NCBI GenBank assembly: GCA_017406005.1
Contig: JAFQZI010000045.1
Location: 1 to 42,340 of the forward strand
Length of the DNA: 42,340 bases
DNA from: Oscillospiraceae bacterium
GTDB taxonomy: Bacteria; Bacillota; Clostridia; Oscillospirales; Oscillospiraceae
Direction: 5' to 3'
Shown here: piece after piece, positions 8,908 to 39,236 of the stretch
Position numbering within the stretch: the stretch's first letter is position 1
How the letters are laid out: each line of letters opens with the position of its first letter
Program-made: the position numbers and the translations under genes
The notes under the pieces: generated by a model
The model's database searches: none
What the model was told of the DNA's origin: nothing
What the model saw: only the letters and a program-made list of their open reading frames with translations

Positions 8908-8992
8908 GCTCGCGACCGGGCACCGAAATCGAGGCATGATGTTGTCTTCGCGAGCATGAAGAAAGCACTTCTCACGAAGTGACTGAACAGTT
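8908..8992 (+). repeat. Dispersed hairpin element, copy A
   Basis: Core 8908-8955 begins GCTCGCGA and ends TCGCGAGC, with GCACCGAAATCGAGG inside. The tail 8956-8992 carries its own small stem (CACTTC/GAAGTG) and ends CTGAACAGTT. It lies in the 224-base gap between livJ and livH. The other copies are at 12781, 12882, 34373 and 39159. Confidence 0.85.
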
Positions 8993-9025
8993 TTTTTCCA
9001 CTCTATCCGAAATGAGGATTCTTGT

Positions 9026-9952
9026 ATGAATTTTTTGAAAGTCGCCCTGCCGTACGTCATTTCAGGCGTCTCTGTAGGCGGCCAGTATGCCCTGATTGCC
9101 ATCGGTTACACGATGGTTTACGGCATTCTGAGGCTGATTAACTTTGCGCATGGCGATGTGTTTATGGTGGCCGGCCTGCTCATGGTCTATCTTGCGGCGT
9201 CTTTTCCGCTCTACATAGCAGTTCCCGCAGTCATTATCCTGACGGTTCTGCTCGGCTTCACCATTGAGCGTGTGGCTTACCGCCCCCTGCGCAGCGCACC
9301 GAGAATGTCCGTCATGATCTCGGCCATCGGTGTGAGCTATCTGCTGCAGAACCTCGCCCTTTATATCACCGGCGGTCTGAACAAGAACTATCCGCCCATC
9401 CCCTGGATTTCCGACCGTATTTCCGTCTTCGGGTTGGAAACAACGCGTGTTACGGTCATCACACCGTTTCTCACCATCGTTCTGGTGGTTGCCCTTGTGC
9501 TTCTCATCAACCATACCAAGCTCGGCATGGCGATGCGTGCAGTCTCCAAAGATTTTGAGACCAGCCAGCTCATGGGCATCAAAATCAACTCCGTCATTTC
9601 CGCAACGTTTATCATCGGCACCTTCCTGGCGGCAGTCGGCTCCATGCTCTACTTCACGAACTATCCCGGCGTTGTCCCCACATCCGGAGGCATGCCCGGG
9701 CTGAAAGCGTTTGTAGCCGCTGTCTTCGGCGGGATCGGTTCGATCCCCGGTGCGGTGATCGGTGCGTTTATCATCGGCATCTGCGAAAGCCTGATCAAGG
9801 GGCTTGACACCATCCTCATCGTCAACGGTGTCATCAGCGAGCAGATCGGCCTTGCTACCTTCTCGGATGCATTCACTTTTGTGCTGCTGATCATCATTCT
9901 TGTCTTCAAGCCGACAGGCCTGTTCGGTGAGAAGCAGACGGACAAGGTTTAA
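9026..9952 (+). CDS. livH: Branched-chain amino-acid ABC transporter, permease LivH
   Basis: One of the two membrane subunits of the importer. The 308-residue product has about eight hydrophobic segments and the LivH family pattern: SGVSVGGQYALIAIGYTMVYG near the N-terminus, LRLINFAHGDVFM, and in the last third VVPTSGGMPGLKAFVAAVFGG then GSIPGAVIGAFIIG. The ATG at 9026 follows a GAGG 9 bases upstream. It overlaps nothing and is followed by livM after 13 bases. Confidence 0.96.
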   Translation: MNFLKVALPYVISGVSVGGQYALIAIGYTMVYGILRLINFAHGDVFMVAGLLMVYLAASFPLYIAVPAVIILTVLLGFTIERVAYRPLRSAPRMSVMISAIGVSYLLQNLALYITGGLNKNYPPIPWISDRISVFGLETTRVTVITPFLTIVLVVALVLLINHTKLGMAMRAVSKDFETSQLMGIKINSVISATFIIGTFLAAVGSMLYFTNYPGVVPTSGGMPGLKAFVAAVFGGIGSIPGAVIGAFIIGICESLIKGLDTILIVNGVISEQIGLATFSDAFTFVLLIIILVFKPTGLFGEKQTDKV

Positions 9953-9965
9953 GGAGGGTCGGGGC

Positions 9966-11120
9966 ATGACGAAAACAAACCATAAAAAGAACTGGCTTTC
10001 GGTCCTTATCGTTCTTCTCTTCCTTGCTCTTGTCCTTTTCCTCGATCAGAAAATCAAGCCCACCAACTCCATGTACATGTTGATGACGGTTCTGCAGAAG
10101 GGCTCCGTTTATGCGCTCGCTGCTGTTTCCATGAACCTTCTCAACGGCTATACCGGCCTCTTCTCGCTCGGCCATGCGGGCTTCATGCTCATCGGGGCTT
10201 ATTCCTATGCTATTTTCACCATTCCCGCCGCCTCGCGTGACACGGTTTATCAGTATTATGAAGCCGCGGTCCGGATCTCTTTCCCGGAGATATTCAGCGC
10301 GGCGATCGGCCCTGCAGGCACGGTGCTCGGCATTATCCTGGCGGTGCTGGTCGCGGGTCTCGCGGCGGCCATCTTCGCCTACCTGATCGGCCTGCCTGTC
10401 CTGAAACTGAAGAGTGACTATCTGGCCATTGCAACGCTCGGCTTTGCGGAGATCATCCGTGCCGTTTTCCAGTGGAGCAAGCTCGGCCCGATCACAAACG
10501 GTTCCAACATCCTCAAGAGCTTCCCGCGTACGAGCACCTTCAAATTCAAGCTGGCGGGGGAGACGATCAAACTCTCCACCTTCGTCCCTGTGCTGATCGC
10601 CACCATCTGCATTGCCCTGATCGTGCTTCTGGTCAACTCCACCTACGGCCGGTCTTTCAAAGCCATCCGCGACGATGAAATTGCTGCGGAGGCCATGGGC
10701 ATCAATCTTGCAAAGCACAAGATGATCAGCTTTGTCACAAGCTCTTTCTTCGCAGGGGTTGCAGGTGCCGTCATGGCAATGGTGCTCTCCATTGCTCAGG
10801 CAAGCAACTTCAAGAGCGCCATGACGTATGAGATCCTCCTCATGGTGGTTCTCGGCGGTATCGGCTCGATATCCGGTTCGGTCATCGGCTCGATGCTGTT
10901 TGTCGCCGCGTCTGAATGGTGGCTCCGCGGGCTCGACTCCGGTGTCTTCCTCGGCATCGAGGCCCCGAATATCTTCCGCAACGGCTTCCGTCTGGTCGTC
11001 TTCTCCATCATTATCATGATTGTCGTGCTGTTCTTCCGCAAAGGCATTATGGGTGACAGGGAGATCACCGATCTCTTCCGCAAAAAAAGCAAAACACCGG
11101 CAAAGGAGGCGGGCAAATGA
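9966..11120 (+). CDS. livM: Branched-chain amino-acid ABC transporter, permease LivM
   Basis: Second membrane subunit, 384 residues, with nine or so hydrophobic segments. The family pattern MNLLNGYTGLFSLGHAGFML (residues about 57-77) and the loop SDYLAIATLGFAEIIRAVF are present. Near the C-terminus are MAMVLSIAQASNFKSAMTYE and LGGIGSISGSVIGSMLFV. The ATG at 9966 is chosen because AAGGAGGG lies just upstream; an earlier in-frame ATG would lie inside livH. The stop overlaps the livG start by four bases (ATGA). Confidence 0.96.
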   Translation: MTKTNHKKNWLSVLIVLLFLALVLFLDQKIKPTNSMYMLMTVLQKGSVYALAAVSMNLLNGYTGLFSLGHAGFMLIGAYSYAIFTIPAASRDTVYQYYEAAVRISFPEIFSAAIGPAGTVLGIILAVLVAGLAAAIFAYLIGLPVLKLKSDYLAIATLGFAEIIRAVFQWSKLGPITNGSNILKSFPRTSTFKFKLAGETIKLSTFVPVLIATICIALIVLLVNSTYGRSFKAIRDDEIAAEAMGINLAKHKMISFVTSSFFAGVAGAVMAMVLSIAQASNFKSAMTYEILLMVVLGGIGSISGSVIGSMLFVAASEWWLRGLDSGVFLGIEAPNIFRNGFRLVVFSIIIMIVVLFFRKGIMGDREITDLFRKKSKTPAKEAGK

Positions 11121-11971
11121 GTGAACAGAAAAATGTCCTCCGGCTGGAAAACGTGACCATGCAGTTTGGCGGTGTCGTTGCCGTCAACAATCTCTCGCTG
11201 GAAGTGAACGAGGGTGAAATCGTTGCCCTCATCGGCCCCAACGGAGCGGGCAAAACCACGGCCTTCAACTGCATCACCGGTGTCTATGAGCCTACCAACG
11301 GCATCATCTCCTTTGAGGGCAAACCCATCGTTGCCAACCATCCGTCCGGCAAGATGAAGAAGGATTACCAGGGCTTCTTCGGCGACAAGTATCTCAACAT
11401 CAAACCGATCGATCCCACGCCTGACCAGATCACCAAGCTCGGCATTGCAAGAACCTTCCAGAACATCCGCCTGTGGAAGTCCATGACGGTGTTTGACAAT
11501 GTTCTTACCGCCAAGCACATGCGTTCCAAACAGAATGTCTTCTCCGCGACCTTCCGCACAAACCAGGCGGACGAGAAAAAGATGCGCGAGGAGACGCTTG
11601 CCTTCCTCGAAGAGCAGGATCTCGCCCAGTATCGTGATGATCTGGCTGTCTCCCTGCCGTACGGTCTCCAGCGCCGTCTCGAAATCGCCCGTGCCCTGGC
11701 CACCGAGCCGAAGCTCCTTCTGCTCGACGAGCCTGCAGCCGGCATGAACCCGCAGGAGACGGAAGACCTCGGCAGATTTATCGTGGACATCAAAGACCGC
11801 CATAATCTTACCATTCTGATGATCGAACATCATATGGACCTTGTTATGAAGTTCTCTGACAGGATTTACGTGATAGACTTCGGCAAGCTGATCGCCCAGG
11901 GCACGCCCGCGGAGATTCAGGCGAACCCGAAAGTAATCGAGGCATATCTGGGGGTGGCAGACGATGAGTGA
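11117..11971 (+). CDS. livG: Branched-chain amino-acid ABC transporter, ATPase LivG
   Basis: Cytoplasmic ATPase of the importer, 284 residues. Walker A GPNGAGKT is at residues 40-47, followed by the LivG-type long insertion before the Q-loop ARTFQNIRLW. The signature segment is VSLPYGLQRRLEIARALA, with the weak YGxQRR form of the C-loop that is normal for LivG. Walker B is LLLLDEPAAGMNP and the H-loop ILMIEHHMD. It overlaps livM by four bases and livF by eight, indicating translational coupling. Confidence 0.97.
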   Translation: MSEQKNVLRLENVTMQFGGVVAVNNLSLEVNEGEIVALIGPNGAGKTTAFNCITGVYEPTNGIISFEGKPIVANHPSGKMKKDYQGFFGDKYLNIKPIDPTPDQITKLGIARTFQNIRLWKSMTVFDNVLTAKHMRSKQNVFSATFRTNQADEKKMREETLAFLEEQDLAQYRDDLAVSLPYGLQRRLEIARALATEPKLLLLDEPAAGMNPQETEDLGRFIVDIKDRHNLTILMIEHHMDLVMKFSDRIYVIDFGKLIAQGTPAEIQANPKVIEAYLGVADDE

Positions 11972-12674
11972 ACCCATTCTTACTATTACCGACCTGAAGG
12001 TCAACTACGGCGGCATCGAAGCGGTCAAAGGCATCAGCTTTGAAGTCCCGGAGGGGAGCATTATTACGCTCATCGGTTCCAACGGCGCGGGCAAGAGCTC
12101 AACGCTTCGCACCATCGCCGGGCTCGTAAAACCGGTTTCCGGCAAAATTGTGTTCCGCGGGGATGACATTACCGGCCTTGATCCCACCTCAATCGTCAAA
12201 AAGGGTGTTACGCTTGTCCCGGAGGGGAGAAGGATCTTCCCGGATCTTTCCGTTGTGGAAAACCTCAAAATGGGTGCCTATCTCCGCAATGATGATATCT
12301 CCGGCGACCTCCAGTGGGTTTACGATCTCTTCCCCCGTCTGAAGGAGCGTTCCTGGCAGGCGGGAGGCACGCTATCCGGCGGCGAACAGCAGATGCTGGC
12401 TGTCGGCCGTGCCCTGATGAGCCGCCCGAAAATGATCATGATGGACGAGCCTTCTCTTGGCCTTGCTCCGATCATCGTCAAAGGCATTTTCGATATCATC
12501 CGCGAAATCAACAAGCAGGGCGTTACGGTTCTCCTCATTGAGCAGAACGCCAATATGGCTCTAAAAACAGCGGACTTTGCCTATGTTCTCGAAACCGGAA
12601 AGATTACAATGTCCGGCCCCGGAAAAGAGCTCCTCGTTAACGAAGACGTCAAAAAAGCCTACCTCGGCACATAA
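11964..12674 (+). CDS. livF: Branched-chain amino-acid ABC transporter, ATPase LivF
   Basis: Second ATPase, 236 residues, the usual LivF length. Walker A GSNGAGKS is at residues 38-45. Other motifs are VPEGRRIFPDLSVVENL, the signature LSGGEQQMLAVGRALM, Walker B MIMMDEPSLGLAP and the H-loop VLLIEQNA. It is the last gene of the transporter operon and is followed at once by a strong terminator. Confidence 0.97.
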   Translation: MSEPILTITDLKVNYGGIEAVKGISFEVPEGSIITLIGSNGAGKSSTLRTIAGLVKPVSGKIVFRGDDITGLDPTSIVKKGVTLVPEGRRIFPDLSVVENLKMGAYLRNDDISGDLQWVYDLFPRLKERSWQAGGTLSGGEQQMLAVGRALMSRPKMIMMDEPSLGLAPIIVKGIFDIIREINKQGVTVLLIEQNANMALKTADFAYVLETGKITMSGPGKELLVNEDVKKAYLGT

Positions 12675-12679
12675 AACTA

Positions 12680-12708
12680 AGCCCTCCGGTTTACCCCCGG
12701 AGGGCTTT
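12680..12708 (+). terminator. Intrinsic terminator of the liv operon
   Basis: The stem AGCCCTCCGG / CCGGAGGGCT with a short TTTACCC loop is followed by TTTTC, 6 bases after the livF stop. Confidence 0.88.
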
Positions 12709-12780
12709 TCATTAATTCGAGTAAAAAACTATTCAGTTCTGTCTATTTCATTTACAATTCCGTTTATTTCATTAAACTTA

Positions 12781-12860
12781 GCTCGCGACGGAGCACTAAA
12801 ATCGAGGTACAACGTTCCCTTCGCGAGCCTATGCAGTCACTACGAAGCGCCAGATTCACT
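12781..12860 (+). repeat. Dispersed hairpin element, copy B
   Basis: Core 12781-12828 (48 bases) has arms GCTCGCGA and TCGCGAGC, an inner stem GGAGC/GTTCC and the segment GCACTAAAATCGAGG. The tail contains CACTACGAAGCGCC. It lies downstream of the liv terminator and is followed by copy B2 with a period of about 101 bases. Confidence 0.88.
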
Positions 12861-12881
12861 ATACACTCTTTCCTCACTATA

Positions 12882-12968
12882 GTTCGCGCGACGGAGCAGT
12901 CTGTACGTGGTACCATCTTGTCTTTGCGCGAAACTTGTATGCACTCATTACGAAGCGCCTGAATAGTT
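12882..12968 (+). repeat. Dispersed hairpin element, copy B2 (diverged)
   Basis: The arms are TTCGCGC (12883-12889) and GCGCGAA (12926-12932). The start CGACGGAGCA matches copy B, but the inner part has diverged. The tail ATGCACTCATTACGAAGCGCC is close to that of copy B. It ends CTGAATAGTT, the inverse of AACTATTCAG at 12727-12736, so the B/B2 pair is bounded by a 10-base inverted repeat. Confidence 0.75.
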
Positions 12969-12969
12969 A

Positions 12970-13920
12970 TTAATTACGTCCGTTTCCTGTATCCTTTTTC
13001 TTTACCAGGTAAACCGTCGTGCATGCACCGAAGGCTGCCATCAACCCCAGTGCTGTCCACAAGGCTACATTCCCGTCGTCTCCGGTCTTAGGCCGCAGAT
13101 AGATCGATTCAAACCGGATGGTCATCACCTGGTTCTGCCCCTGCAGCATGTCATACGTCACCATAAACTGGTTGCCGTACTGCACATTCCGGTACCATCC
13201 CGCCAGGAAGATGCTGTAAACGTAATAGCCCTCATATGGCTGGAAAATGAAGTTGAAGCTCTGCCCGGGTTCCAGCTTTCCGGTCCATCCGCTCGGCACA
13301 TTCCCACCACTCAGCCGCACTGCGCCGTAACCGGAATAATTAACAGTCAGGTATAATGCGGTGGAAATCATCTCCCAGTACGGATAGAGCACCATATTGC
13401 TGCTGATCGTAACATGCTGTCCCAGTGAGAAGGCCTTCGGCCCGCCGTCATAAAAGCTCCATCCGGTTTGCGTGTGTCCCGCCCTGGTAAACCCCTGGCC
13501 GGAAATGATGGCATCTCCCGGATACCATTCCGTCGAAAAAGAAGAACCGGATACGCCTGTTCCCGGCATGTATGTGATGGTATAGCGGGGGATATAGCTT
13601 CCCCCGCTCGGCCCTGTTGAGGGATAATACCCGGAAGCCGGAGCCGTGGCAGGGTAGTACCCGGTGCTTGGGGCAGAGGGTGCATAATAACCTGCACTTG
13701 GGGCATCTATCGTATACCCGTCCAGCGATCCCGTTCCGTAACTCGGGTATCCGGACATCGAGCCGTAACCGTATCCCGGATAGCTTGAGGGTGCGCTGTA
13801 GCCGTAATCGTATCCGTATCCCGTTCCTCCGGAATACGAGTCGTAATACGACGCCCATGCCGAACCAGCTGAGCTGCCCAGCAGAACCAGGCAAAGTAAC
13901 AGAACAAATACTTTCTTCAT
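12970..13920 (-). CDS. Tyrosine-rich, InlB-repeat surface protein with LPXTG-like anchor
   Basis: The 316-residue exported protein has a signal peptide of about 23 residues (cleavage after AWA). A low-complexity Tyr/Gly/Ser/Pro region at about 25-110 holds roughly 20 tyrosines and repeats of the form TGYYP. Residues about 112-183 look like an InlB/Listeria-Bacteroides beta-grasp repeat (TITYMPGTG, FTRAGHTQTGWS, VLYPYW). A second all-beta region follows. The C-terminus is a sorting signal: RPKTGD (276-281), a membrane segment (285-305) and KKK. Sortase would therefore link it to peptidoglycan, though no sortase gene is in the window. RPKTG differs from LPXTG at the first position. A 15-base gap to the upstream gene suggests one operon. 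Confidence 0.8.
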   Translation of the reverse strand: MKKVFVLLLCLVLLGSSAGSAWASYYDSYSGGTGYGYDYGYSAPSSYPGYGYGSMSGYPSYGTGSLDGYTIDAPSAGYYAPSAPSTGYYPATAPASGYYPSTGPSGGSYIPRYTITYMPGTGVSGSSFSTEWYPGDAIISGQGFTRAGHTQTGWSFYDGGPKAFSLGQHVTISSNMVLYPYWEMISTALYLTVNYSGYGAVRLSGGNVPSGWTGKLEPGQSFNFIFQPYEGYYVYSIFLAGWYRNVQYGNQFMVTYDMLQGQNQVMTIRFESIYLRPKTGDDGNVALWTALGLMAAFGACTTVYLVKKKDTGNGRN

Positions 13921-13935
13921 GAATGTTTTCCTATT

Positions 13936-14586
13936 TTATCCACCTGTATGTGTGATTACTACACCCCAGGCAATGGCTATCGTAATAAATGCGGTTATTG
14001 CAGATAAGCCGCAAATGATTTCCAGCACTAAGATCAGCCGGGAAGGTTCTTTCCAACTCGGCGCTTCATCCTTTGGTGAAAAAGGTTTAAGCGATCCGTA
14101 ATTTTCTTTTTTCTTTTCCGGGGCTGTTTTCACAACAGCCGCACTCTTCGGCGCTTCGATTGTCTTTTCTTCAAATGGAAGAATTAGGGGAGGGGCCTCT
14201 TCCGGAGGCTGTTTCGAAAGCTCTTTCAAAGGTTCTTTCGGAAGTTCTATCGGAGCGGCGTTTTGCGCTTCGTGCTTCCCCTTGACCTGCACCGGCGTCT
14301 CCTCCGGGTTCTCTACCGGGAGCTCCGTGATCAGTGCCTCAATCCAGTCTTTTTCTGGGGATGGGGGCTCTGCTGTCGGGCTCTCTTTTATTTCTGAGGG
14401 TTTCTTTTTCCTTCTTACTGAAGGTTTCTTCTCTCTTCTTATTGCAGTTTTCCTTTTCCTGTATGCCGTTTCTTCTTTCTGCAGAGCTTCATCCGGATAA
14501 TCAGCACCTTCATCCCAGTCTTTGGTAAAAACGAAAATCAGGGAGGCCACGACAACCAGTGCAACAGCAACTAAAAATAAAAACAT
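13936..14586 (-). CDS. Bitopic membrane protein with Lys/Glu/Pro-rich linker, unknown function
   Basis: The 216-residue product has an N-terminal membrane segment (residues about 2-20) and a second one near the C-terminus (about 185-212). Between them is a long charged, proline-rich and probably disordered region with basic patches (RKRKTAIRREKKPSVRRKKK). I recognise no family. The linker probably lies in the cytoplasm or wall space. It is the first gene of a unit with the tyrosine-rich surface protein and has a strong promoter. AGGAGG lies 14 bases upstream of the ATG, slightly far. Confidence 0.7.
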   Translation of the reverse strand: MFLFLVAVALVVVASLIFVFTKDWDEGADYPDEALQKEETAYRKRKTAIRREKKPSVRRKKKPSEIKESPTAEPPSPEKDWIEALITELPVENPEETPVQVKGKHEAQNAAPIELPKEPLKELSKQPPEEAPPLILPFEEKTIEAPKSAAVVKTAPEKKKENYGSLKPFSPKDEAPSWKEPSRLILVLEIICGLSAITAFITIAIAWGVVITHTGG

Positions 14587-14630
14587 CTGAAAGGTCCTGT
14601 CCTCCTTTTCATTATTACGTAAACTAATTT

Positions 14631-14660
14631 ATTATAACAGGGGAGAGTAATAAAAGTCAA
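14631..14660 (-). promoter_or_regulatory. Promoter of the surface-protein operon
   Basis: On the minus strand, TTGACT (14655-14660), an 18-base spacer and a perfect TATAAT (14631-14636). Confidence 0.7.
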
Positions 14661-14694
14661 GCCCATAAAGAGAATAAGACTTCTCTTTATGGGC
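14661..14694 (-). terminator. Perfect 14-base inverted repeat after the macrodomain gene
   Basis: GCCCATAAAGAGAA and TTCTCTTTATGGGC pair perfectly with a 6-base loop. It lies downstream of the macrodomain gene and directly abuts the -35 box of the next promoter. The following tract (TTGACTTTTATT) is only moderately T-rich, so termination is probable rather than certain. Confidence 0.6.
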
Positions 14695-14734
14695 ATAATG
14701 TATTTTTTAAATTAGCTCTTTAGTTCTATTGCTG

Positions 14735-15268
14735 TCAGCAGAGGGAATTCATGATTTCTTTTCCCGTTGCCACTTTTTCATCATCTGTATTTACAAATAC
14801 AATCTGCAGTTCATAATCCGGATTCTCATTCATCCAGTCCCTGCAGGCACTGATTGCGACCGTCCAGGCTTCCTCAAGGGGATATCCGTAGATCCCTGCA
14901 GAGATGAGCGGGAAGCCGATGGAATGGCACCCGTATTCTTTTGCCAGCGCAAGGGATTTCTGATAACAGCTGTATAACTGTTCCGCTTCGCCCCTTCTTC
15001 CGCCGTTGTAAACAGGTCCTACCGCATGAATAATGTATTTGTTTTCTTTCATGTTAAAGGCAGGCGTGATGACGGCAGATCCCGTAGGGCATTGCCCGAT
15101 TCTGTCACAGGCAGCCTGTAGCTGTGCCGAACCGGCTGCTCTGAAAATCGCTCCGCAGACACCGCCGCCCTGCTGCAGATACTGATTGGCAGCGTTGACA
15201 ACCGCGTCTGTTTTCAGATTTGTGATTCCGTCCTTGTGAATTTCAATTGTTCCGATAGGTGTGTTCAT
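14735..15268 (-). CDS. Macrodomain protein (O-acetyl-ADP-ribose deacetylase-like)
   Basis: A single 177-residue macrodomain of the MacroD/YmdB class, which binds ADP-ribose and removes O-acetyl groups or mono-ADP-ribose. Family motifs are DAVVNAANQYLQQGGGVCGAIF (residues about 21-42), AVITPAFNMKENKYIIHAVGP (about 64-84) and the phosphate loop FPLISAGIYGYPLEEA (about 120-135). There is no signal peptide. A GATGAGG site precedes the ATG. It stands in an accessory stretch without an obvious ADP-ribosyltransferase partner. The upstream 427 bases hold a decayed gene and a promoter. Confidence 0.93.
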   Translation of the reverse strand: MNTPIGTIEIHKDGITNLKTDAVVNAANQYLQQGGGVCGAIFRAAGSAQLQAACDRIGQCPTGSAVITPAFNMKENKYIIHAVGPVYNGGRRGEAEQLYSCYQKSLALAKEYGCHSIGFPLISAGIYGYPLEEAWTVAISACRDWMNENPDYELQIVFVNTDDEKVATGKEIMNSLC

Positions 15269-15342
15269 CTCGTAACCTCATCCATAATACAGATTCCCTT
15301 GGCATTTCTTCGTTGATAGTGCAGAATCGTCAATCACTCACC

Positions 15343-15510
15343 TCATTTTTTGTCATCCCCAAGTATAATATCCAACATCTTGTACTCGACAACAAATACA
15401 GGGTCTTTTTTACCTTTTTACCTTCACACTGCATTCTGGGTATTCTTCCCAGACATCATCAAAAGCCGCATCGCATCGAGAACAGACACTCAATCATCTT
15501 ATAATCCATT
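15343..15510 (-). pseudogene. Decayed small zinc-ribbon protein gene
   Basis: The leftward strand between the macrodomain gene and the double-glycine peptide gene holds frame-broken fragments. One (15410-15493) reads CSRCDAAFDDVWEEYPEC then SVKVKR and a stop. After a shift in an A-run, a second (down to 15343) reads KDPVFVVEYKMLDIILGDDK and a stop. The first resembles a zinc ribbon of the CxxC...CPEC kind with the third cysteine changed to Tyr. A start MDYKMIEC lies in yet another frame just upstream. I infer about two frameshifts in a gene of about 55 codons. Chance resemblance cannot be excluded. The rest of 15269-15695 holds a promoter and a terminator. Confidence 0.35.
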
Positions 15511-15517
15511 ATAAAAT

Positions 15518-15545
15518 ATTATACTACAAGGTTCATAACATGCAA
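15518..15545 (-). promoter_or_regulatory. Leftward promoter upstream of the decayed gene and macrodomain gene
   Basis: TTGCAT (15540-15545), a 16-base spacer and TATAAT (15518-15523) on the minus strand. It could serve the macrodomain gene through a leader of about 240 bases. Confidence 0.55.
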
Positions 15546-15628
15546 GTATTCTTTGTGGTTAATAAATCATTAGGGGCCGAAAGGACGAAAAAAGAATCCC
15601 GACCTGCGGGCCGGAGATGAGATAATAC

Positions 15629-15678
15629 AAAAAACAGCGGCCCGAAGCAGAGTGACAAGTCATCTCGCCTCAGGCTGT
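15629..15678 (-). terminator. Intrinsic terminator of the double-glycine peptide unit
   Basis: On the minus strand a long stem begins ACAGCCTGAGGC and closes with GCTTCGG ... GCTGT around a TGAC-TT-GTCA tip, followed by six T. It starts 18 bases after the peptide stop codon. A second, weaker hairpin lies further downstream near 15590-15620. Confidence 0.8.
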
Positions 15679-15695
15679 CTATATGGTTTTTTCCA

Positions 15696-15890
15696 TCAGT
15701 TCGGATTAAAGCTGGTTTCGCAGTCGCGGCAGAAAAAATGCATCCGGGGAAACTTTACAACGATATAGTTCCGGCTGCCGCATTCCGGGCAGGTGAACTT
15801 TACCTGGTAATCTGTTGGCAGCGGCAATTCAAAACCGCCGACAACCTTTTTCAACTCTTTATCAGAGAGTCGGCAATGCTTTTTTTCCAT
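15696..15890 (-). CDS. Double-glycine-leader peptide with zinc-ribbon-like core
   Basis: The 64-residue product has a leader ending LSDKELKKVVGG (residues 8-19). This matches the consensus of leaders cut after GG by C39-peptidase ABC transporters (class II bacteriocins and related peptides). The predicted 45-residue core carries CPEC (34-37) and CRDC (54-57), a pair of CxxC knuckles 16 residues apart, as in a zinc ribbon. A zinc-binding core behind a GG leader is unusual. An AAGGAAGG site precedes the ATG. It lies 15 bases after a small secreted-protein gene and probably shares its transcript. No transporter, peptidase or immunity gene is recognisable nearby. An alternative is a plain cytoplasmic zinc ribbon whose N-terminus resembles a leader by chance. 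Confidence 0.75.
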   Translation of the reverse strand: MEKKHCRLSDKELKKVVGGFELPLPTDYQVKFTCPECGSRNYIVVKFPRMHFFCRDCETSFNPN

Positions 15891-15905
15891 GATTACAACC
15901 TTCCT

Positions 15906-16238: not shown

Positions 16239-16335
16239 TTTTTATTTTCTCCTTTATTTTTGTTTTGTGAGCACAGCATAGCACACGGATTATCACAGAA
16301 CTGTCACATGGAAAATATTTTTTTAGGCATGATAC

Positions 16336-16366
16336 AAAAAGCCGCCAAGGGTAAACCCTCAGCGGT
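16336..16366 (-). terminator. Intrinsic terminator after the SH3-domain gene
   Basis: On the minus strand CCGCTGAGGG, loop TTTA and CCCTTGGCGG form a stem with one mismatch, followed by CTTTTTG. It isolates the SH3-domain gene from the next unit. Confidence 0.8.
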
Positions 16367-16391
16367 TATGATATAGATATGGTTCTCTGCA

Positions 16392-29240: not shown

Positions 29241-29249
29241 CATTGCCTT

Positions 29250-31445: not shown

Positions 31446-31468
31446 AAATCCTGCCTCCGGCAGGATTT
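31446..31468 (+). terminator. Stem-loop between rsmA and ppdK
   Basis: AAATCCTGCC and GGCAGGATTT pair over ten bases with a TCC loop. The T-run is only three bases long, so it may be partial. The ppdK -10 box TATAAT follows at 31491-31496. Confidence 0.65.
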
Positions 31469-31523
31469 ATGGCATTTATTCCGGTAAACCTATAATTTTT
31501 GGATAAAGAAAGGATCAGTATCA

Positions 31524-34238
31524 ATGAGCAAAAAGTATGTCTATCTGTTCTCCGAAGGCAATGCAAACATGCGTGAGCTTCTCGGCGGAAAAGGTGCAAA
31601 CCTGGCAGAGATGACCAACATCGGTCTTCCCGTTCCGCAGGGCTTCACCATCACCACCGAGGCTTGCAACCGCTACTATGAGGATGGCCGCCAGATTAAT
31701 GATGAGATCATGAGCCAGGTCATGGAGTATGTTGAGCGTATCGAGCTCCTGAATGACAAGAAGTTCGGCGATCTCGAGAATCCTCTCCTCGTCTCTGTCC
31801 GTTCCGGCGCACGCGCATCCATGCCCGGTATGATGGACACGATCCTCAACCTGGGCCTGAATGACGATGTTGTCGCAGCCATGATCAGCCGCAACCCGTC
31901 TCCCGAATTCGAGCGTTTCGTTTATGACTCTTACAGAAGATTCATCCAGATGTTCTCAGACGTTGTTATGGAAGTCGGCAAGAAGTATTTTGAAAAGCTC
32001 ATTGACGAGATGAAGGAAGCCAAGGGCGTTACCTACGATGTCGAGCTCACGGCTGAAGATCTCAAGATGCTTGCCCAGCAGTTCAAGGCCGAGTACAAAG
32101 CCCAGATCGGTGAAGACTTCCCGACCGATCCTATCATTCAGCTCAAGGAAGCCATCAAGGCTGTCTTTCGTTCCTGGGATAACCCGCGTGCCAACGTCTA
32201 CCGCCGCGATAATGACATCCCGTATTCCTGGGGCACCGCCGTTTCCGTCATGCCGATGGTCTTCGGCAACCTGAATGATAACTCCGGTACCGGCGTCGCC
32301 TTCACGCGTGACCCCGCCACCGGCGAGAAGAAGCTCATGGGTGAGTTCCTCACCAATGCCCAGGGCGAAGACGTTGTAGCCGGTATCCGCACCCCGATGC
32401 CCATATCCCAGATGGAGCAGAAGTTCCCCGAGGCATACCGCCAGTTCACCCAGGTCTGCCGCATCCTTGAAAACCACTACCATGACATGCAGGACATGGA
32501 GTTCACCGTCGAAAACGGCAAGCTCTACATGCTCCAGTGCCGCAACGGCAAGCGTACCGCCCAGGCCGCTCTGCAGATTGCCTGCGACCTCGTTGACGAG
32601 GGTATGATCGATGACAAGCAGGCCGTCCTGATGATTGACCCGCGCAACCTCGACACACTTCTCCACCCACAGTTTGACGCCGCAGCCCTCAAGCGTGCAA
32701 AGCCTCTGGGCAAGGGCCTCGGTGCCTCTCCCGGCGCAGCTTGCGGCAAGATTGTCTTCTCCGCAGAAGATGCCAAAGAGTGGGCAGCCCGCAAGGAAAA
32801 GGTCGTCCTTGTCCGTTTGGAGACCTCACCGGAAGACATCGAAGGCATGAAGGCCGCTCAGGGTATCCTGACCGTCCGCGGTGGTATGACCTCCCATGCA
32901 GCCGTTGTTGCCCGCGGTATGGGCTCCTGCTGCGTCTCCGGCTGCGGTGACATCAAGATGGATGAAGAGAACAAGAAGTTCGAACTCGGCGGAAAAGTCT
33001 TCCACGAAGGCGATTACCTCTCGATTGACGGTTCCACCGGTAACATCTACGATGGTCTCATCCCCACGGTTGACGCCACCATCGCCGGCGAATTCGGCCG
33101 TATCATGGGCTGGGCCGACAAGTATCGCCGCCTGAAGGTCCGCACCAATGCCGACACTCCGCGCGATGCCCGCAAGGCTGTCGAACTCGGCGCCGAAGGC
33201 ATCGGCCTCACGAGAACCGAGCATATGTTCTTCAATGAGGATCGTATTCCTGTATTCCGTGAAATGATCTGTGCCGACACTGTGGAAGAGCGCGTTGCCG
33301 CCCTTGCCAAGCTCGAGCCGATGCAGCAGGCTGACTTCGAGGGCATTTACGAAGCCATGCACGGCATGCCCGTCACCATCCGCTTCCTCGATCCTCCTCT
33401 CCATGAGTTCGTTCCCACCGAGGAGGAAGATATCAAGGCCCTCGCAAAGGCCCAGGGCAAGACGGTCGAGCGCATAAAAGAGATCATTGCCTCCCTCCAC
33501 GAGTTCAACCCGATGATGGGCCACCGCGGCTGCCGGCTCGCTGTCACCTATCCGGAAATCGCCGAGATGCAGACCCGTGCCGTGATCAAGGCTGCCATGG
33601 CTGTCAATGCCCGCCATCCGGAATGGAATATCGTTCCCGAAATCATGATCCCGCTGACCGGCGAAGTCAAAGAGCTAAAGTATGTCAAGGATGTTGTCGT
33701 CAGAACCGCTGACAGGCTGATCAGCCGCAACAACTCCAGCCTCCAGTACCTCGTCGGCACCATGATCGAGATCCCGCGTGCAGCTCTCACGGCAGATGAG
33801 ATGGCCACCGAAGCCGAGTTCTTCTCCTTCGGCACCAACGACCTTACCCAGATGACATTCGGCTTCTCCCGTGACGATGCCGGCAAGTTCCTTAACTCCT
33901 ACTATGACACCAAGATCTACGAGAATGACCCGTTCGCCCGTGTCGACCAGAAGGGCGTCGGCAAGCTGGTTGCCATGGCCTGCAAGCTCGGCCGTGAGAC
34001 CCGCCCGAACATCCACCTCGGTGTCTGCGGCGAGCACGGCGGCGATCCGTCCTCTGTTGAGTTCTTCCACAAGGTCGGGCTCGACTATGTTTCCTGCAGC
34101 CCGTTCCGTGTTCCCATCGCACGCCTTGCCGCAGCGCAGGCTGCCATCAAGGACGAGTCCCGCAAGGCAGAGCTCATTGAAGCCCTGAAGGACAGCGGCA
34201 AATCCTACGAAGAAATCATTGCCTTCCTCCACGGCTGA
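31524..34238 (+). CDS. ppdK: Pyruvate, phosphate dikinase
   Basis: Interconverts pyruvate, ATP and phosphate with PEP, AMP and PPi; in fermenting clostridia it can run in glycolysis to gain ATP. The 904-residue length is normal. The N-terminal ATP-grasp domain shows LLGGKGANLAEMTNIGLPVPQGFTIT in family position and VRSGARASMPGMMDTILNLG. The central swivel domain holds the phospho-histidine loop GGMTSHAAVVARGMG. The C-terminal PEP/pyruvate barrel holds GLTRTEHMFF, EFFSFGTNDLTQM and GVCGEHGGDP. AAAGGA precedes the ATG, and a TATAAT box lies at 31491. Codon use is strongly biased, as in livJ, suggesting high expression. Confidence 0.98.
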   Translation: MSKKYVYLFSEGNANMRELLGGKGANLAEMTNIGLPVPQGFTITTEACNRYYEDGRQINDEIMSQVMEYVERIELLNDKKFGDLENPLLVSVRSGARASMPGMMDTILNLGLNDDVVAAMISRNPSPEFERFVYDSYRRFIQMFSDVVMEVGKKYFEKLIDEMKEAKGVTYDVELTAEDLKMLAQQFKAEYKAQIGEDFPTDPIIQLKEAIKAVFRSWDNPRANVYRRDNDIPYSWGTAVSVMPMVFGNLNDNSGTGVAFTRDPATGEKKLMGEFLTNAQGEDVVAGIRTPMPISQMEQKFPEAYRQFTQVCRILENHYHDMQDMEFTVENGKLYMLQCRNGKRTAQAALQIACDLVDEGMIDDKQAVLMIDPRNLDTLLHPQFDAAALKRAKPLGKGLGASPGAACGKIVFSAEDAKEWAARKEKVVLVRLETSPEDIEGMKAAQGILTVRGGMTSHAAVVARGMGSCCVSGCGDIKMDEENKKFELGGKVFHEGDYLSIDGSTGNIYDGLIPTVDATIAGEFGRIMGWADKYRRLKVRTNADTPRDARKAVELGAEGIGLTRTEHMFFNEDRIPVFREMICADTVEERVAALAKLEPMQQADFEGIYEAMHGMPVTIRFLDPPLHEFVPTEEEDIKALAKAQGKTVERIKEIIASLHEFNPMMGHRGCRLAVTYPEIAEMQTRAVIKAAMAVNARHPEWNIVPEIMIPLTGEVKELKYVKDVVVRTADRLISRNNSSLQYLVGTMIEIPRAALTADEMATEAEFFSFGTNDLTQMTFGFSRDDAGKFLNSYYDTKIYENDPFARVDQKGVGKLVAMACKLGRETRPNIHLGVCGEHGGDPSSVEFFHKVGLDYVSCSPFRVPIARLAAAQAAIKDESRKAELIEALKDSGKSYEEIIAFLHG

Positions 34239-34272
34239 TACAGTTCGTTCTTCTAAAAGATTATTCATTACA

Positions 34273-34300
34273 CCCCCGGCTCCCGCCGGGGGCTTTCTTT
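34273..34300 (+). terminator. Intrinsic terminator of ppdK
   Basis: CCCCCGG and CCGGGGG pair with loop CTCCCG, followed by CTTTCTTT, 35 bases after the stop. Confidence 0.85.
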
Positions 34301-34372
34301 CCTCAACAACAAAAATGGTAAAAATTTTTTGCATATAACATTACTTTCCCTGATGTCTCTATAGATTCTATA

Positions 34373-34451
34373 GCTCGCGACGGAGCACCAAAAGGAGGAG
34401 CAGTGTTCCCTTCGCGAGCACCTGCTGTGCACTAAATTCGAGGTAATAAAC
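34373..34451 (+). repeat. Dispersed hairpin element, copy C
   Basis: Core 34373-34419 (47 bases) has arms GCTCGCGA / TCGCGAGC, inner stem GGAGC/GTTCC and GCACCAAAAGGAGG inside. The tail TGTGCACTAAATTCGAGGTA reaches into the leader of the next gene and supplies its only ribosome-site candidate (GAGG). Confidence 0.85.
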
Positions 34452-34457
34452 AAGAAA

Positions 34458-35276
34458 ATGAATGTAATTGAAATCACCGACATCAACGCTCCCGAGCTCG
34501 ATGTCTATGCCCGCCTCACCGAGCGTGAACTACGCCACCCGCAAAAAGGCACCGGTCTCTTCATCGCCGAGAGCCCGAATGTCATCGAGCGTGCCCTGGA
34601 CGCCGGTTTCATCCCCATCTCACTGCTCATGGAGAAAAAGCATATAGAAGGACAGGCTGCCAATGTCATCTCCCACTGCGGAGATATACCCGTTTTCACG
34701 GCTCCTCTCCCGGTGCTTACCCAGCTCACCGGTTTTGCGCTGACCCGCGGAGTACTTTGCGCCATGCGGCGCCGCCCGCTTCCTTCCCCTGAGTCAATCT
34801 GCGCCTCCGCCCGCCGCATCGCCGTGCTGGAAAACGTCATGAACCCCACTAACATCGGTGCCATCTTCCGCTCCGCAGCTGCCCTCGGGATGGACGCTGT
34901 ACTCCTCACGCCCGCCTGCTGCGATCCGCTTTACCGCCGATCGGTGCGCGTCAGCATGGGCACCGTCTTCCAGATCCCCTGGGCATATCTTGGGGAAACC
35001 GCTTCCGATTGGCCGGAACCTGGCCTTTCCGTCCTGCGCTCCCTCGGCTTTGCAACAGCCGCCATGGCCCTGCGGGACGATTCCGTCTCAATTTCCGACC
35101 CGTGCCTTGCCGCAGAGGAAAAGCTTGCCGTCATCCTCGGTACGGAAGGGGACGGTCTCGCCGCCTCCACCATCGCCTCCTGCAATTATACCGTCCGCAT
35201 ACCGATGTCCCACGGGGTCGATTCCCTCAATGTCGCGGCTGCCAGCGCTGTCGCCTTCTGGCAGCTTGGCAGATAA
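34458..35276 (+). CDS. SpoU/TrmH family RNA 2'-O-methyltransferase
   Basis: The 272-residue product has an N-terminal substrate-binding domain (FIAESPNVIERALDAG, about residues 35-50) and a SPOUT domain (about 115-272). Motif 1 is LENVMNPTNIGAIFRSAAALG, motif 2 LAVILGTEGDGL and motif 3 VRIPMSHGVDSLNVAAASAVAF. These are the three SpoU motifs with intact Asn, Arg and Glu. The target (rRNA or tRNA ribose) cannot be told from sequence. The start ATG at 34458 has only GAGG 14 bases upstream, inside the tail of repeat copy C. Confidence 0.93.
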   Translation: MNVIEITDINAPELDVYARLTERELRHPQKGTGLFIAESPNVIERALDAGFIPISLLMEKKHIEGQAANVISHCGDIPVFTAPLPVLTQLTGFALTRGVLCAMRRRPLPSPESICASARRIAVLENVMNPTNIGAIFRSAAALGMDAVLLTPACCDPLYRRSVRVSMGTVFQIPWAYLGETASDWPEPGLSVLRSLGFATAAMALRDDSVSISDPCLAAEEKLAVILGTEGDGLAASTIASCNYTVRIPMSHGVDSLNVAAASAVAFWQLGR

Positions 35277-35295
35277 GCAGCATCGTTTTCTCCCC

Positions 35296-35323
35296 TTGCA
35301 AAATCATGGAATTGTGATACAAT
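35296..35323 (+). promoter_or_regulatory. Promoter of potABCD
   Basis: TTGCAA (35296-35301), a 16-base spacer and TACAAT (35318-35323). An imperfect inverted repeat with outer arms TGGAAT (35307) and ATTCCA (ending 35330) and inner TTGT/ACAA overlaps the -10 box and is a candidate operator. Confidence 0.6.
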
Positions 35324-35360
35324 GATTCCAGGTTATCTTTGACAAAAGGAGAACAGGCGA

Positions 35361-36437
35361 ATGGGAGATGCGATGCTGCAGCTTAATCAGATCCGGAAGC
35401 GCTTCGGGGATAAAGAAGTCCTTTGCGGCATTGATCTCGATGTGGAACGCGGCGAGTTTATAACGCTTTTGGGATCCTCAGGATGCGGGAAGACGACGCT
35501 TCTGCGTATTATCGCAGGGCTGGACTTCTGCGACAGCGGAAGCATTCTCCTGGAAGGCCAGGACGTGACGGATTTTCCGCCGGAAAAGCGCAACGTCAAT
35601 ATGGTTTTTCAGAACTATGCGCTTTTCCCGCATATGAATGTGGCGGAAAACGTGGGATACTCTCTGCGCCTGAAGCACAGATCTCGTAAGGAAATCGAGA
35701 AAGCAGTTACGGATACACTTGCGCTTGTTCAGCTTCCCGGATATGAATCCCGCCGGCCTTCGGAACTTTCCGGCGGCCAGCGGCAGCGTATCGCCATTGC
35801 TCGTGCACTGGTCAATGAGCCGGGCGTTCTCCTGCTCGACGAGCCGCTCGGAGCACTTGATCTTCAGCTTCGCCGCCAGATGCAGATTGAGCTGAAACGT
35901 CTTCAGAAACGCCTCGGCATCACGTTTATCTACATCACGCATGACCAGGAAGAAGCCCTCAACATGTCTGACAGGATAGCTGTCATGAAAAACGGAATCT
36001 TCCAACAGATCGGCACCCCTTCAGATATTTATGACCGGCCGAAAAATGCTTATGTGGCGCACTTTGTCGGCTCTGCAAATATTCTCTCCGGCACAGTACT
36101 GGTGAAGCAGGGTGCTGTTTATCTGCAGTATGCGGGAGGCCTTGCAGCGGTAGACGCCGAAAAGAAACCGGTGAAAAACGGCGCCCCACTGACGGTTGCC
36201 GTCAGAAGTGAATATATCGACCTTCTCTCTCCCGAAGAAACCGGGATTCCCGCCGTCGTGAAGGAAAAGAGCTTTTCCGCCGGCATGCTGCGAATTGCCC
36301 TCCAGATGGAAAACGGGGACGAAGTCATTGCCAGCCGGCATGGGATTGACTATCATCTTGCCCCCGGAGATAAGGTCACCGTTCTGTTCTCACCGGAACA
36401 TGCCGTGCTCGTGGAGGCTGAAGATGAAAAGCCGTAA
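35361..36437 (+). CDS. potA: Spermidine/putrescine ABC transporter, ATPase PotA
   Basis: ATPase of the polyamine importer, 358 residues. The nucleotide-binding domain has Walker A GSSGCGKTT (about 38-46), Q-loop VFQNYALFPHM, signature LSGGQRQRIAIARAL, Walker B VLLLDEPLGALD and the H-loop TFIYITHDQEEAL. A C-terminal TOBE-type domain (about 235-355) binds regulatory ligands in this family. AAGGAG lies 10 bases upstream. The gene overlaps potB by 14 bases. Confidence 0.96.
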   Translation: MGDAMLQLNQIRKRFGDKEVLCGIDLDVERGEFITLLGSSGCGKTTLLRIIAGLDFCDSGSILLEGQDVTDFPPEKRNVNMVFQNYALFPHMNVAENVGYSLRLKHRSRKEIEKAVTDTLALVQLPGYESRRPSELSGGQRQRIAIARALVNEPGVLLLDEPLGALDLQLRRQMQIELKRLQKRLGITFIYITHDQEEALNMSDRIAVMKNGIFQQIGTPSDIYDRPKNAYVAHFVGSANILSGTVLVKQGAVYLQYAGGLAAVDAEKKPVKNGAPLTVAVRSEYIDLLSPEETGIPAVVKEKSFSAGMLRIALQMENGDEVIASRHGIDYHLAPGDKVTVLFSPEHAVLVEAEDEKP

Positions 36438-37284
36438 GAAAGAGCGGGGGAATGCGGTGTTTCTTCTTCCTATGTATCTTTTTACAGTCGTTTTCCTGAT
36501 CGGTCCTTTCGTCTACATGATTGTCCTCAGCTTCCTCACCCGTGCGGAAACCTGGGGTGTAGTGAACGAATTTACCCTCGGCAACTATGCCAAAATCCTG
36601 AAGCCACTCTATCTCAGTACGTTCGGGCGTTCCCTGAAGCTCGCTCTGGAGGTTACAGCACTGATAGCTCTCACCGGCTATCCCTTCGGTTACTTTATGG
36701 CAAAACTCCCGCCGAAGCGTCGCGCAAGGCTTCTGATGCTGGTCATGATCCCGTTTTACACCAGTTCCCTAATGCGGATGTATGGCTGGATTATCATCTT
36801 CCGTGCCAACGGCCTGCTGGACAAATTTCTCATTGCCCTCCATGTGATTGAACGTCCGCTGAAACTGCTCTATACCTATCCTGCAGTCGTGGTCGGCATG
36901 GTTTATGCCCTCCTGCCGTTCATGATGCTCTCCGTCTACACCAGTGTTGAAAAAATGGACTGGAGCCTCGTGGAAGCGGCGCGGGACATGGGAGCCTCTC
37001 CCGCAAGAGCCTTCCTTACCGTTACATTTCCGCTTACTATGCCCGGCTTGATGACCGGTGTGATTCTGAGCTTTATTCCTTCCATGGGTCTTTTCTTCGT
37101 GGCGGACATTCTCGGTGGCAACAAGATAGTACTCGTTGGTAACGTGATTCAGGAACAGCTCATGAAGGTGCATGACTGGCCGTTTGCCGCAGCACTCTCC
37201 GTGATCCTCATGCTGATGATGACGGTTATGATCTGGCTCTACCGAAAGGTTACCGGCAGCAGTGAGATGGAGGGTATGGTATGA
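36424..37284 (+). CDS. potB: Spermidine/putrescine ABC transporter, permease PotB
   Basis: Membrane subunit of the polyamine importer, 286 residues with six hydrophobic segments. The cytoplasmic EAA loop is VEAARDMGASPARAFLTVTFPL (about residues 183-204). The first segment, LPMYLFTVVFLIGPFVYMIV, is the usual start. The ATG at 36424 is chosen, just before the end of potA, because the longer frame lies wholly within potA. It overlaps potC by four bases. Confidence 0.95.
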   Translation: MKSRKKERGNAVFLLPMYLFTVVFLIGPFVYMIVLSFLTRAETWGVVNEFTLGNYAKILKPLYLSTFGRSLKLALEVTALIALTGYPFGYFMAKLPPKRRARLLMLVMIPFYTSSLMRMYGWIIIFRANGLLDKFLIALHVIERPLKLLYTYPAVVVGMVYALLPFMMLSVYTSVEKMDWSLVEAARDMGASPARAFLTVTFPLTMPGLMTGVILSFIPSMGLFFVADILGGNKIVLVGNVIQEQLMKVHDWPFAAALSVILMLMMTVMIWLYRKVTGSSEMEGMV

Positions 37285-38081
37285 AAAAACGCCCTGTATT
37301 CTCGGAAACCTATCTGATCCTGCTCACGGTTCTGATGTACCTGCCGATTATCATCGTTATGGTCTATTCCTTCAACGAAAACAAACTCAGTTCCGTCTGG
37401 TCTGGCCTCTCCCTCAAATGGTATGAGGATCTTTTTCGTGATCGTGACATTGCTTCTGCGCTGATCAACAGCCTGCTTCTCGGTGTGCTCTCCTCGCTTG
37501 CGGCAGCAGTCATCGGCACGCTCGGCGCGATCGGCTCGATGCGCACGGGCTTTCGCGGCAAAGGGGTAATGGAATACATTGCCACTCTCCCGATGATGAC
37601 GCCTGAAATCATCCTCGGCATGCTGTTTCTTGCTTTCTTCTCGCTTCTGGGCCTGCCCTTCGGGATAATGACACTCGTGATCAGCCATACGGCCTTTTGC
37701 ATTCCCTATGTGTTTATGCAGGTCAAAGCCCGTCTTGCCGGGATGGATAAAAGTTATGAGGAAGCCGCCCGGGACCTCGGCGCGAAGCCGGCAAGGGTCT
37801 TCTTTGACATTACTTTCCCGCTGATCTTTCCGGGTATCCTCTCCGGGATTCTGCTCTCCTTTGCCATGAGTTTTGACGATGTGATCATCAGCGTCTTTGT
37901 CACGGGAGCCAGGGTGAATACACTCCCGATCCTGATTTATACCCGCTTGAAAACGGGCCTTACGCCGAAAATCAATGCTCTTTGCACCCTGATGTTTCTG
38001 GCAACTCTTTTTCTCGTCCTTCTCTCTTCTGTCATCGGAAGGTTAGGAAATACTAAAAAAAGAAAGGAACCGACACCATGA
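37281..38081 (+). CDS. potC: Spermidine/putrescine ABC transporter, permease PotC
   Basis: Second membrane subunit, 266 residues with six hydrophobic segments. The N-terminus ETYLILLTVLMYLPIIIVMVYSFN and the EAA loop EEAARDLGAKPARVFFDITF (about 159-178) are typical. FAMSFDDVIISVFVTG is the PotC-type segment near the C-terminus. It overlaps potB and potD by four bases each, so all four genes are translationally coupled. Confidence 0.95.
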   Translation: MKKRPVFSETYLILLTVLMYLPIIIVMVYSFNENKLSSVWSGLSLKWYEDLFRDRDIASALINSLLLGVLSSLAAAVIGTLGAIGSMRTGFRGKGVMEYIATLPMMTPEIILGMLFLAFFSLLGLPFGIMTLVISHTAFCIPYVFMQVKARLAGMDKSYEEAARDLGAKPARVFFDITFPLIFPGILSGILLSFAMSFDDVIISVFVTGARVNTLPILIYTRLKTGLTPKINALCTLMFLATLFLVLLSSVIGRLGNTKKRKEPTP

Positions 38082-39136
38082 AAAAATCCGTTGCCCTGTT
38101 CCTCGCCCTTGTTCTCTGCTTCTCGCTTCCCGTCCTGTCGCTTTCCGCATATGCTAATGATGGCGTGGTGACGATCTATACCTGGGCGGAAATGTTCCCG
38201 CCTGAAGTACTCAATGCCTTTGAAGAAGAAACCGGATATAAGATTAATTATGTAAACTTTGACCTCGATGAAACCATGCTGGCCAAGCTGGAAGCTGCCG
38301 GCGGCGGTGATTACGATGTCATTATTGCGGATGATTATATCATCGAGCGCGCTGTCGAGCTTGGTCTTTTGCAGAAGCTGGATAAGGAAAAAATCGCAAA
38401 CTTTAGCAACATAAACCCAATTTACCAGGGCCAGTTCTATGACCCGCAGGATGAATACACGGTTCCGTACGGCGCCGGTGTCCAGACGATTACCTACAAT
38501 CCTGCCACGGTTTCCGTTCCCGTCAGCGGTTATGCTGACCTCTGGGACGAGGCGTTCCGGGATGATATTGCCCTTACCGCAAACTACCGTGTTATGATCG
38601 GCATGGCGCTGAAAATCCTTGGCTACAGCTACAACACCAATGACCTCAGTGAAATTGAAAAGGCCGGTGATCTGCTCTACTCCCTCGCTCCCAACGTCCG
38701 CATGATCAAGGATGATTTTATTCAGGACGATCTGGTCTCCGGCGAAGTGTCTGCAGCTGTCATGTATACCTCTCAGGTCACAATGGCAAAACTGGCGGAT
38801 CCTTCCATTGAAATTGTCTATCCGCAGGAAGGCATCGGGTTCGGAATCATGGGTATGTTTGTGCCCGTCAAAGCACCTAATGCGGACGGCGCTCACGCTT
38901 TTATTGATTATATTCTCCGGCCGGACATTAGTGCACAGTGCTATGAATGGATGGGTTACTACTGCACCAACAAAGCTGCAGATGATCTGATTTCAGAGGA
39001 GTTTCGGGAGTTCCTCGTTCTTCCCGAAGAATTTAAAATGGAAGACATGGAAATGATCGGCAATATCAGCCCTGAAGCCGACACTCTTATGGATGAAATC
39101 TGGACGCAGTTCAAAACTCTCTGCGGCCAGTCTTGA
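38078..39136 (+). CDS. potD: Spermidine/putrescine ABC transporter, substrate-binding protein PotD
   Basis: Extracellular polyamine-binding protein, 352 residues. The signal peptide (about 1-26) ends SAYA before NDGVV and has no convincing lipobox: the only cysteine follows LVL and lies within the hydrophobic core. The mature part matches PotD: TIYTWAEMFPPEVLNAFEEE, YDVIIADDYIIERAVELGLL, the hinge region VPYGAGVQTITYNP and PQEGIGFGIMGMFVP. It is the last gene of the operon, as usual, and is followed by repeat copy D and a hairpin. Confidence 0.95.
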   Translation: MKKSVALFLALVLCFSLPVLSLSAYANDGVVTIYTWAEMFPPEVLNAFEEETGYKINYVNFDLDETMLAKLEAAGGGDYDVIIADDYIIERAVELGLLQKLDKEKIANFSNINPIYQGQFYDPQDEYTVPYGAGVQTITYNPATVSVPVSGYADLWDEAFRDDIALTANYRVMIGMALKILGYSYNTNDLSEIEKAGDLLYSLAPNVRMIKDDFIQDDLVSGEVSAAVMYTSQVTMAKLADPSIEIVYPQEGIGFGIMGMFVPVKAPNADGAHAFIDYILRPDISAQCYEWMGYYCTNKAADDLISEEFREFLVLPEEFKMEDMEMIGNISPEADTLMDEIWTQFKTLCGQS

Positions 39137-39158
39137 ACGGGTAACAGTTTAGCAAACA

Positions 39159-39236
39159 GCTCGCGACAAAGCACTCAAATCGAGCTCTATGTCGTCTTCG
39201 CGAGCAGCTTGTTGTGTACTGATTATGGTGTAAAAC
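39159..39236 (+). repeat. Dispersed hairpin element, copy D
   Basis: Core 39159-39205 (47 bases) has the arms GCTCGCGA / TCGCGAGC and AAGCACTCAAATCGAG inside. The inner stem is lost but the outer eight pairs are kept. The tail TTGTTGTGTACTGATTATGG resembles that of copy C. Confidence 0.85.

Follow-up and report, generated by a model that had tools for sequence, protein, structure and literature searches.

Small palindromic elements, probably mobile, in rumen bacteria of a few related species and in their phages, with an IS66-ended subset

In repetitive extragenic palindromic (REP) systems with a REP-associated tyrosine transposase (RAYT), a conserved tetranucleotide of the GTAG or GGAG kind is located 5' of the hairpin. 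To our knowledge, it is still open how the palindromic elements of Rickettsia enter genes in frame and how they spread without an obvious enzyme. The Rickettsia elements are described as palindromic, about 100-150 bp long, and found in frame within unrelated protein genes (PMC10969869). For the IS66 family of insertion sequences, PMC11946415 gives ends that begin with GTAAGCG, and GTAA ends with 8-bp repeats. Here, we describe a family of hairpin elements with features of more than one of these systems, starting from contig JAFQZI010000045.1 of an Oscillospiraceae bacterium (C17, positions 1-42340; the whole stretch is called the window). The window belongs to a metagenome-assembled genome (MAG) of 3.52 Mb in 174 contigs, 92.88% complete and 6.62% contaminated, referred to as G000; the source data are MAGs, in which binning errors are possible.

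In our view, the family consists of palindromic mobile DNA elements of about 80-175 bp that belong to a host clade and its phages, one lineage having IS66 ends; we give this reading, including the proposals on movers and persistence made below, a probability of about 0.72. The original prediction, made from the window, described five hairpins, all of which are present at the places given. Four of them have the arms GCTCGCGA and TCGCGAGC enclosing 31-32 bases, as described. The fifth, copy B2, was thought to have a shorter stem, but its 9-bp stem (TTCGCGCGA/TTGCGCGAA, including a single G-U pair) differs from the others and is not a shortened form of them. The copies were scored with a covariance model, R1, built from 62 copies (61 exact-arm entries and B2) out of 89 exact-arm entries collected from G000, where one place on contig C172 is listed in both orientations.

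8862..8989, plus strand: whole inserted stretch of copy A, missing from the same intergenic region in G024
8908-8915 and 8948-8955, plus strand: arms of copy A, with the tail box at 8965-8979 and the right terminal repeat ACTGAACAGTT at 8982-8992; the left terminal end is decayed; R1 84.4 bits at 8903-8983
12781..12847, plus strand: copy B, arms 12781-12788 and 12821-12828, tail box 12833-12847; R1 81.6 bits at 12776-12851
12883..12955, plus strand: copy B2 (TTCGCGCGA-arm subfamily), arms 12883-12891 and 12924-12932, tail box 12941-12955; R1 67.4 bits at 12879-12959, B2 itself being in the R1 training set
34373..34443, plus strand: copy C, arms 34373-34380 and 34412-34419, tail box 34429-34443; R1 74.0 bits at 34368-34447
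39159..39230, plus strand: copy D, arms 39159-39166 and 39198-39205, diverged tail region 39214-39230; R1 65.4 bits at 39154-39234

The count by covariance model that the prediction had called for gives at least 147 R1 matches in G000 at E<=0.01, with 150 of 856 first-look candidates scored. The self-complementary pattern TCGCGAN{25,45}TCGCGA occurs at 98 places in G000 compared with 6 for the reversed control, and the stricter pattern GCTCGCGAN{26,34}CTTCGCGA yields 53 forward and 38 reverse matches (91, with a few palindromic places counted on both strands) compared with 0 and 0 in the control. The closest pair of distinct G000 copies is 94% identical. In the alignments, the unit is larger than the 48-base core first described and consists of a pyrimidine-rich tract, TTA or TTAA, the hairpin of about 48 nucleotides (nt), a spacer, and the tail box GCACTNATTACGARG. 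The tails had been divided into two subtypes, but they are not unrelated, as nearly all aligned copies carry a form of this box, which itself resembles the hairpin loop GCACYRAAATCGARG (common pattern GCAC-N6-CGARG). The arms vary by subfamily (GCTCGCGA, TTCGCGCGA, GCTCGGA, GCGCGGA, GCGCGTGA, and others), and a loose text match finds an additional hairpin module, placed between the hairpin and the tail, in 17 of the 89 entries, with at least one more present (C50:22392). A second G000 subfamily shows a GCAGTAAAATCGTAG-like loop and an (A)CGAGCGTAA-like tail (L094 4062-4141 and 1476-1556, L083 1478-1557, and L102 1500-1580). A literature search found no description of the hairpin family, and no catalogued family was matched in the searches made. 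Neither of the outcomes named as refuting the prediction, a lack of further copies or a match to a catalogued family, was observed in these searches.

Within the genus, R1 has matches in only 5 of 102 genomes, namely, G000, G024 (at least 32), G088 (at least 24), G020 (at least 17), and G079 (at least 1), under strict filters and with up to 45 candidates scored per genome. Under strict filters, too, 394 genomes sampled from the order gave matches in G000 and none in the other 393. At one locus, which we label alaS from its sequence, the top matches to G000 include G024, G088, and G020. A search of genome contigs with the loop pattern, which may leave out records near the window's own genome, returned two records, the Ruminococcaceae MAG RUG12393 and the Oscillospiraceae MAG RGIG4485 from roe deer omasum. 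The family is limited to a few related rumen bacteria, sister species, plus their phages. In G024, unrelated AATTGCGCATTGCG-like repeats surround the elements of one locus (L196, contig C46).

The search for empty sites, also proposed in the prediction, found sites without the element in relatives, and mobility is therefore supported. For copy A, the empty site in G024 is clean, window positions 8862-8989 being missing there; G088 has some other bases and no hairpin at this place. The copy C site is without the element in all four relatives aligned (G024, G088, G020, and G049). A 20-kb G000 region (L245) contains 11 R1 matches, whereas the syntenic G024 stretches have none at E<=0.5; in alignments made site by site, 7 of the 11 copies, occupying five sites, are lacking in G024. 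Other positions are shared: six host positions are common to two species, with both flanks matching in host DNA and the same orientation (C153:22561/L203, C52:3122/L226, C75:34713/L191, C98:1731/L193, L235/L198:4136, and L190:1535/L215). Further between-species positions have one matching flank, among them the place corresponding to copy B, where G020 carries a diverged copy. These shared positions mean that part of the copies are not of recent date; turnover is high but not complete. A tandem pair of elements is found at the corresponding place in G000 (C151:59651 and 59747) and G020 (L228 1534 and 1636).

The MITE-like nature (miniature inverted-repeat transposable element) considered in the prediction is supported for one subset and not for the whole family. 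Many copies end in the terminal repeats RTAACTRTTCAG and CTGAACAGTTAC (GTAA/ATAA). We examined 117 of the 147 G000 matches for stems and ends, finding both ends in 31, one end in 28, and neither in 58; no common ends were seen in the G024 and G088 copies. The 8-base outer flanks of 32 two-ended copies have a mean identity of 4.09/8 compared with 2.37 after shuffling (maximum of 2000 shuffles, 3.06). Three of these 32 flank pairs are identical (ATTATCAG, ATCTACCG, and AAAAACAG) and two more agree at 7 bases, so that the 8-bp duplications are partly preserved, most being no longer intact. A profile search for IS66 transposases gave two matches in G000, one of which, on contig C159, is a 477-aa open reading frame (ORF) with a DDE_Tnp_IS66 domain between GTAACTGTTCAG and CTGAATAGTTAC, i.e., with the ends of the subset; the second match (C35) has no such ends within the stretch examined. 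We classify the terminal-repeat subset as an IS66-type MITE on sequence grounds, because of the end match to C159, the flank likeness, and the agreement with the published IS66 description (PMC11946415), although the ends read GTAACTG here and GTAAGCG there. IS66-derived MITEs and the subset have in common the GTAA/ATAA terminal repeats, the likeness of the 8-bp flanks, and a same-ended transposase gene in the genome. In contrast, the family has a structured core with a covarying stem and tail box, also occurs without IS66 ends, and is present in several species and phages. Beside this, left-repeat-like AACTATTCAGT near window position 12728, further left of copy B, and right-repeat-like CCTGAATAGTTA at 12958-12969, after copy B2, enclose the two copies (12727-12970). 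The pair might be one composite IS66-type unit; by eye, the outer 8-mers are unlike each other.

For copies without IS66 ends, the search for a mover covered Y1_Tnp and IS66. A blind search for target duplications gave nothing convincing, either among 93 copies outside the clearest terminal-repeat set (28 shared 8-mers, shuffled mean 13.4, maximum 83) or among 71 copies of the relatives (19, shuffled mean 7.8, maximum 39). This lack of duplications, together with the preferred bases TTA/TTAA 5' of the hairpin, an arm covariation that fits a hairpin-binding enzyme selecting the copies, and the location of all 14 matches in three viral contigs on one strand, is consistent with REP-like elements whose movement depends on a Y1 (HUH) tyrosine transposase, either a RAYT or an enzyme of the IS200/IS605 type. 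However, the only Y1_Tnp match in G000 is an IS200-like TnpA of 153 aa (L120 1429-1890, contig C16), the flanks of which by eye do not resemble the element, and we regard such a mover as very doubtful. No RAYT was found by this Y1_Tnp search of G000, a MAG from which the gene could be missing, and the RAYT link raised in the prediction was rejected. The family resembles REP sequences and bacterial interspersed mosaic elements with a RAYT in being dispersed, mostly intergenic palindromes with covarying stems; it differs in the lack of a detected RAYT, in the tail box, and in the terminal-repeat subset, and the bases 5' of the hairpin are, by eye, TTA/TTAA-like instead of the REP tetranucleotide.

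Copies are also found in phage or prophage DNA, which carries portal, major head protein, primase/helicase, and DNA polymerase A genes on four G000 contigs (C157, C160, C54, and C65) and at loci of G024 and G088. In three viral contigs with an 83-85% identical head protein, R1 matches 14 times at E<=0.1, always on the strand that does not carry the head protein gene; the copies there follow gene ends in one orientation. No R1 match was found at E<=0.1 in 80 other viral loci (1.08 Mb), which have primases about 47-53% identical. The loop pattern had no match in viral contigs, though three of them hold diverged copies, and the 229-base stretch with B and B2 matched nothing among phage and plasmid records.

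Several copies lie within phage ORFs, namely, those of the portal (two G000 contigs), primase (G000, G024, and G088), polymerase (G000 and G024), and structural proteins (L291 and L293). Since the gene finder by its design reports only open frames, the weight lies on in-frame homology on both sides. Eight of the ten phage-ORF copies examined share one phase, with a recurring peptide at their end (...SELN, SALK), and two weak L293 matches are one base out of phase. The portal insertion is absent in L292 and L293, as seen by comparing occupied and empty forms, and the primase linker has 80 residues in G000 compared with 32-43 in 79 homologues; for the polymerase, the insertion is read from the peptide only, as both compared proteins carry it. 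In the host copies, no reading frame is specially open (117 copies; reverse frames open in 63, 58, and 73), and coding selection on them was dropped as an explanation. The palindromic form, the size, and the in-frame presence in protein genes with one recurring peptide are shared with the Rickettsia palindromic elements (PMC10969869), whereas the in-frame cases seen here are in phage genes and most copies are intergenic. The likeness is one of behaviour; the sequence is, as far as known, not that of the Rickettsia elements, none of which was compared. GIY-YIG genes are located near elements in phage DNA (L291 15499-16131 and L293 11489-12397 by Pfam, and L243 576-1496 by eye, without a Pfam match), and such genes might help to spread neighbouring DNA between phages.

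The compensatory arm changes that the prediction proposed to look for are abundant. In 148 distinct rows from five genomes, an alignment that was fitted to the stem and hence leans towards it, 97.1% of the arm cells are paired, and six of the eight arm pairs show changes on both sides. Double changes occupy 89 cells compared with 14.5 in shuffles; none of 500 shuffles reaches 89, and slid versions reach at most 26. Taken whole, the structure of arms, small apical stem, and tail stem has a score reached by 0 or 1 of 500 shuffles, with the tail stem paired in only 65% of cells. The extended GGAGC/GTTCC stem of the prediction was dropped, being weak against shuffles (44/500 reach its paired percentage and 47/500 its covariation score). 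A fully paired stem of at least 7 bp is found in 113 of the 117 G000 copies and in 48 of 71 copies from relatives, where 3 of the 71 have no stem of at least 5 bp; these counts lean upward, as many G000 stretches were chosen for exact arms and the stem finder tries several offsets. Compensatory arm differences also occur at shared sites (C160:4655 and L208:3069; C157:8840 and L213:1505), with the short stem of L208:1562 as a counter-example. The hairpin could, instead of being only a parasite, be a signal selected in place and common to bacteria and phages, read by some protein as a folded DNA strand or as RNA. We consider this rather unlikely; it is suggested because phage copies are dense on one strand, some being in frame within essential genes, and because compensatory changes at fixed sites preserve the stem.

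We determined gene context with a home-made codon-usage gene finder. The prediction's statement that all copies have the same orientation is true of the window but not of G000, where copies with both neighbours and no overlap fall into the orientations (+,-) 40, (-,-) 32, (+,+) 22, and (-,+) 10. For 53 of 67 copies in G024, G088, and G020, the gene upstream points in the same direction as the element, a count for which the background gaps come from the DNA around the elements, without an independent control. Among the G000 copies without IS66 ends facing a converging gene, 24 of 39 either overlap the stop codon of that gene or are at most 20 nt away. A structured cis-acting RNA element of untranslated regions, selected in place and acting, e.g., in mRNA stability or processing, would fit this co-directionality, the strong compensatory changes, also between copies at shared sites, the shared positions themselves, and the viral-contig copies following gene ends in one orientation. 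An orientation that is not fixed in G000, the empty sites in relatives, the copies within coding sequence, and the absence from most genus genomes speak against it, and Rfam gave no match: the best hit for two element stretches, at a permissive threshold, was E 0.77 and 18.3 bits where 40 are needed. We consider such an RNA element unlikely; of the prediction's structured RNA, the strongly conserved pairing stands, and an RNA function is neither shown nor excluded. In the window, Rfam matched only a large bacterial signal recognition particle (SRP) RNA (302-568, plus strand) and a tRNA (96-169, minus strand).

Intrinsic terminators, alike by chance or common descent, would also be GC-rich hairpins frequent at the 3' ends of genes. 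The aligned copies, however, have no T-run after the hairpin on either strand, the loop and tail box are conserved, and separate ordinary terminator-like hairpins are visible by eye beside copies A, B, and C. With the T-run missing on both sides, this explanation was rejected and is extremely improbable.

Several observations weigh against mobile elements as the reading of the family. Half of the copies examined (58 of 117) have neither IS66 end, and even among the 32 two-ended copies, 27 have at most 6 matching flank bases, some with perfect ends having 0-3. The flanks of the C159 IS66 element are likewise without an identical 8-bp repeat, and the duplication search outside the clearest subset was unconvincing. 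The six positions shared between species also belong here, as does the persistence of pairing despite a diverse inner sequence, which a passive element would not need after insertion. Either each round of copying requires the stem and the copies are young, or selection maintains the stem in place; the data do not decide between the two.

Under the mobile-element reading, the terminal-repeat subset would be moved by the C159 IS66-family transposase, and copies without IS66 ends would move, or have moved, by another route, possibly using the hairpin as single-stranded DNA. Copies may persist where they do little harm, i.e., at the 3' ends of genes, where the tail or terminal repeat could supply a stop codon, in intergenic regions, and in phage-protein linkers that tolerate an insert. 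Between hosts, copies could travel with phages.

Rumen bacteria thus provide a case comparable to the Rickettsia elements, with phages as possible carriers and empty sites in sister species, and one subset has a candidate transposase, making its route testable. For the annotation of MAGs and phages, the family is a warning that an insert of about 40 residues in a primase or portal protein can have come from such an element.

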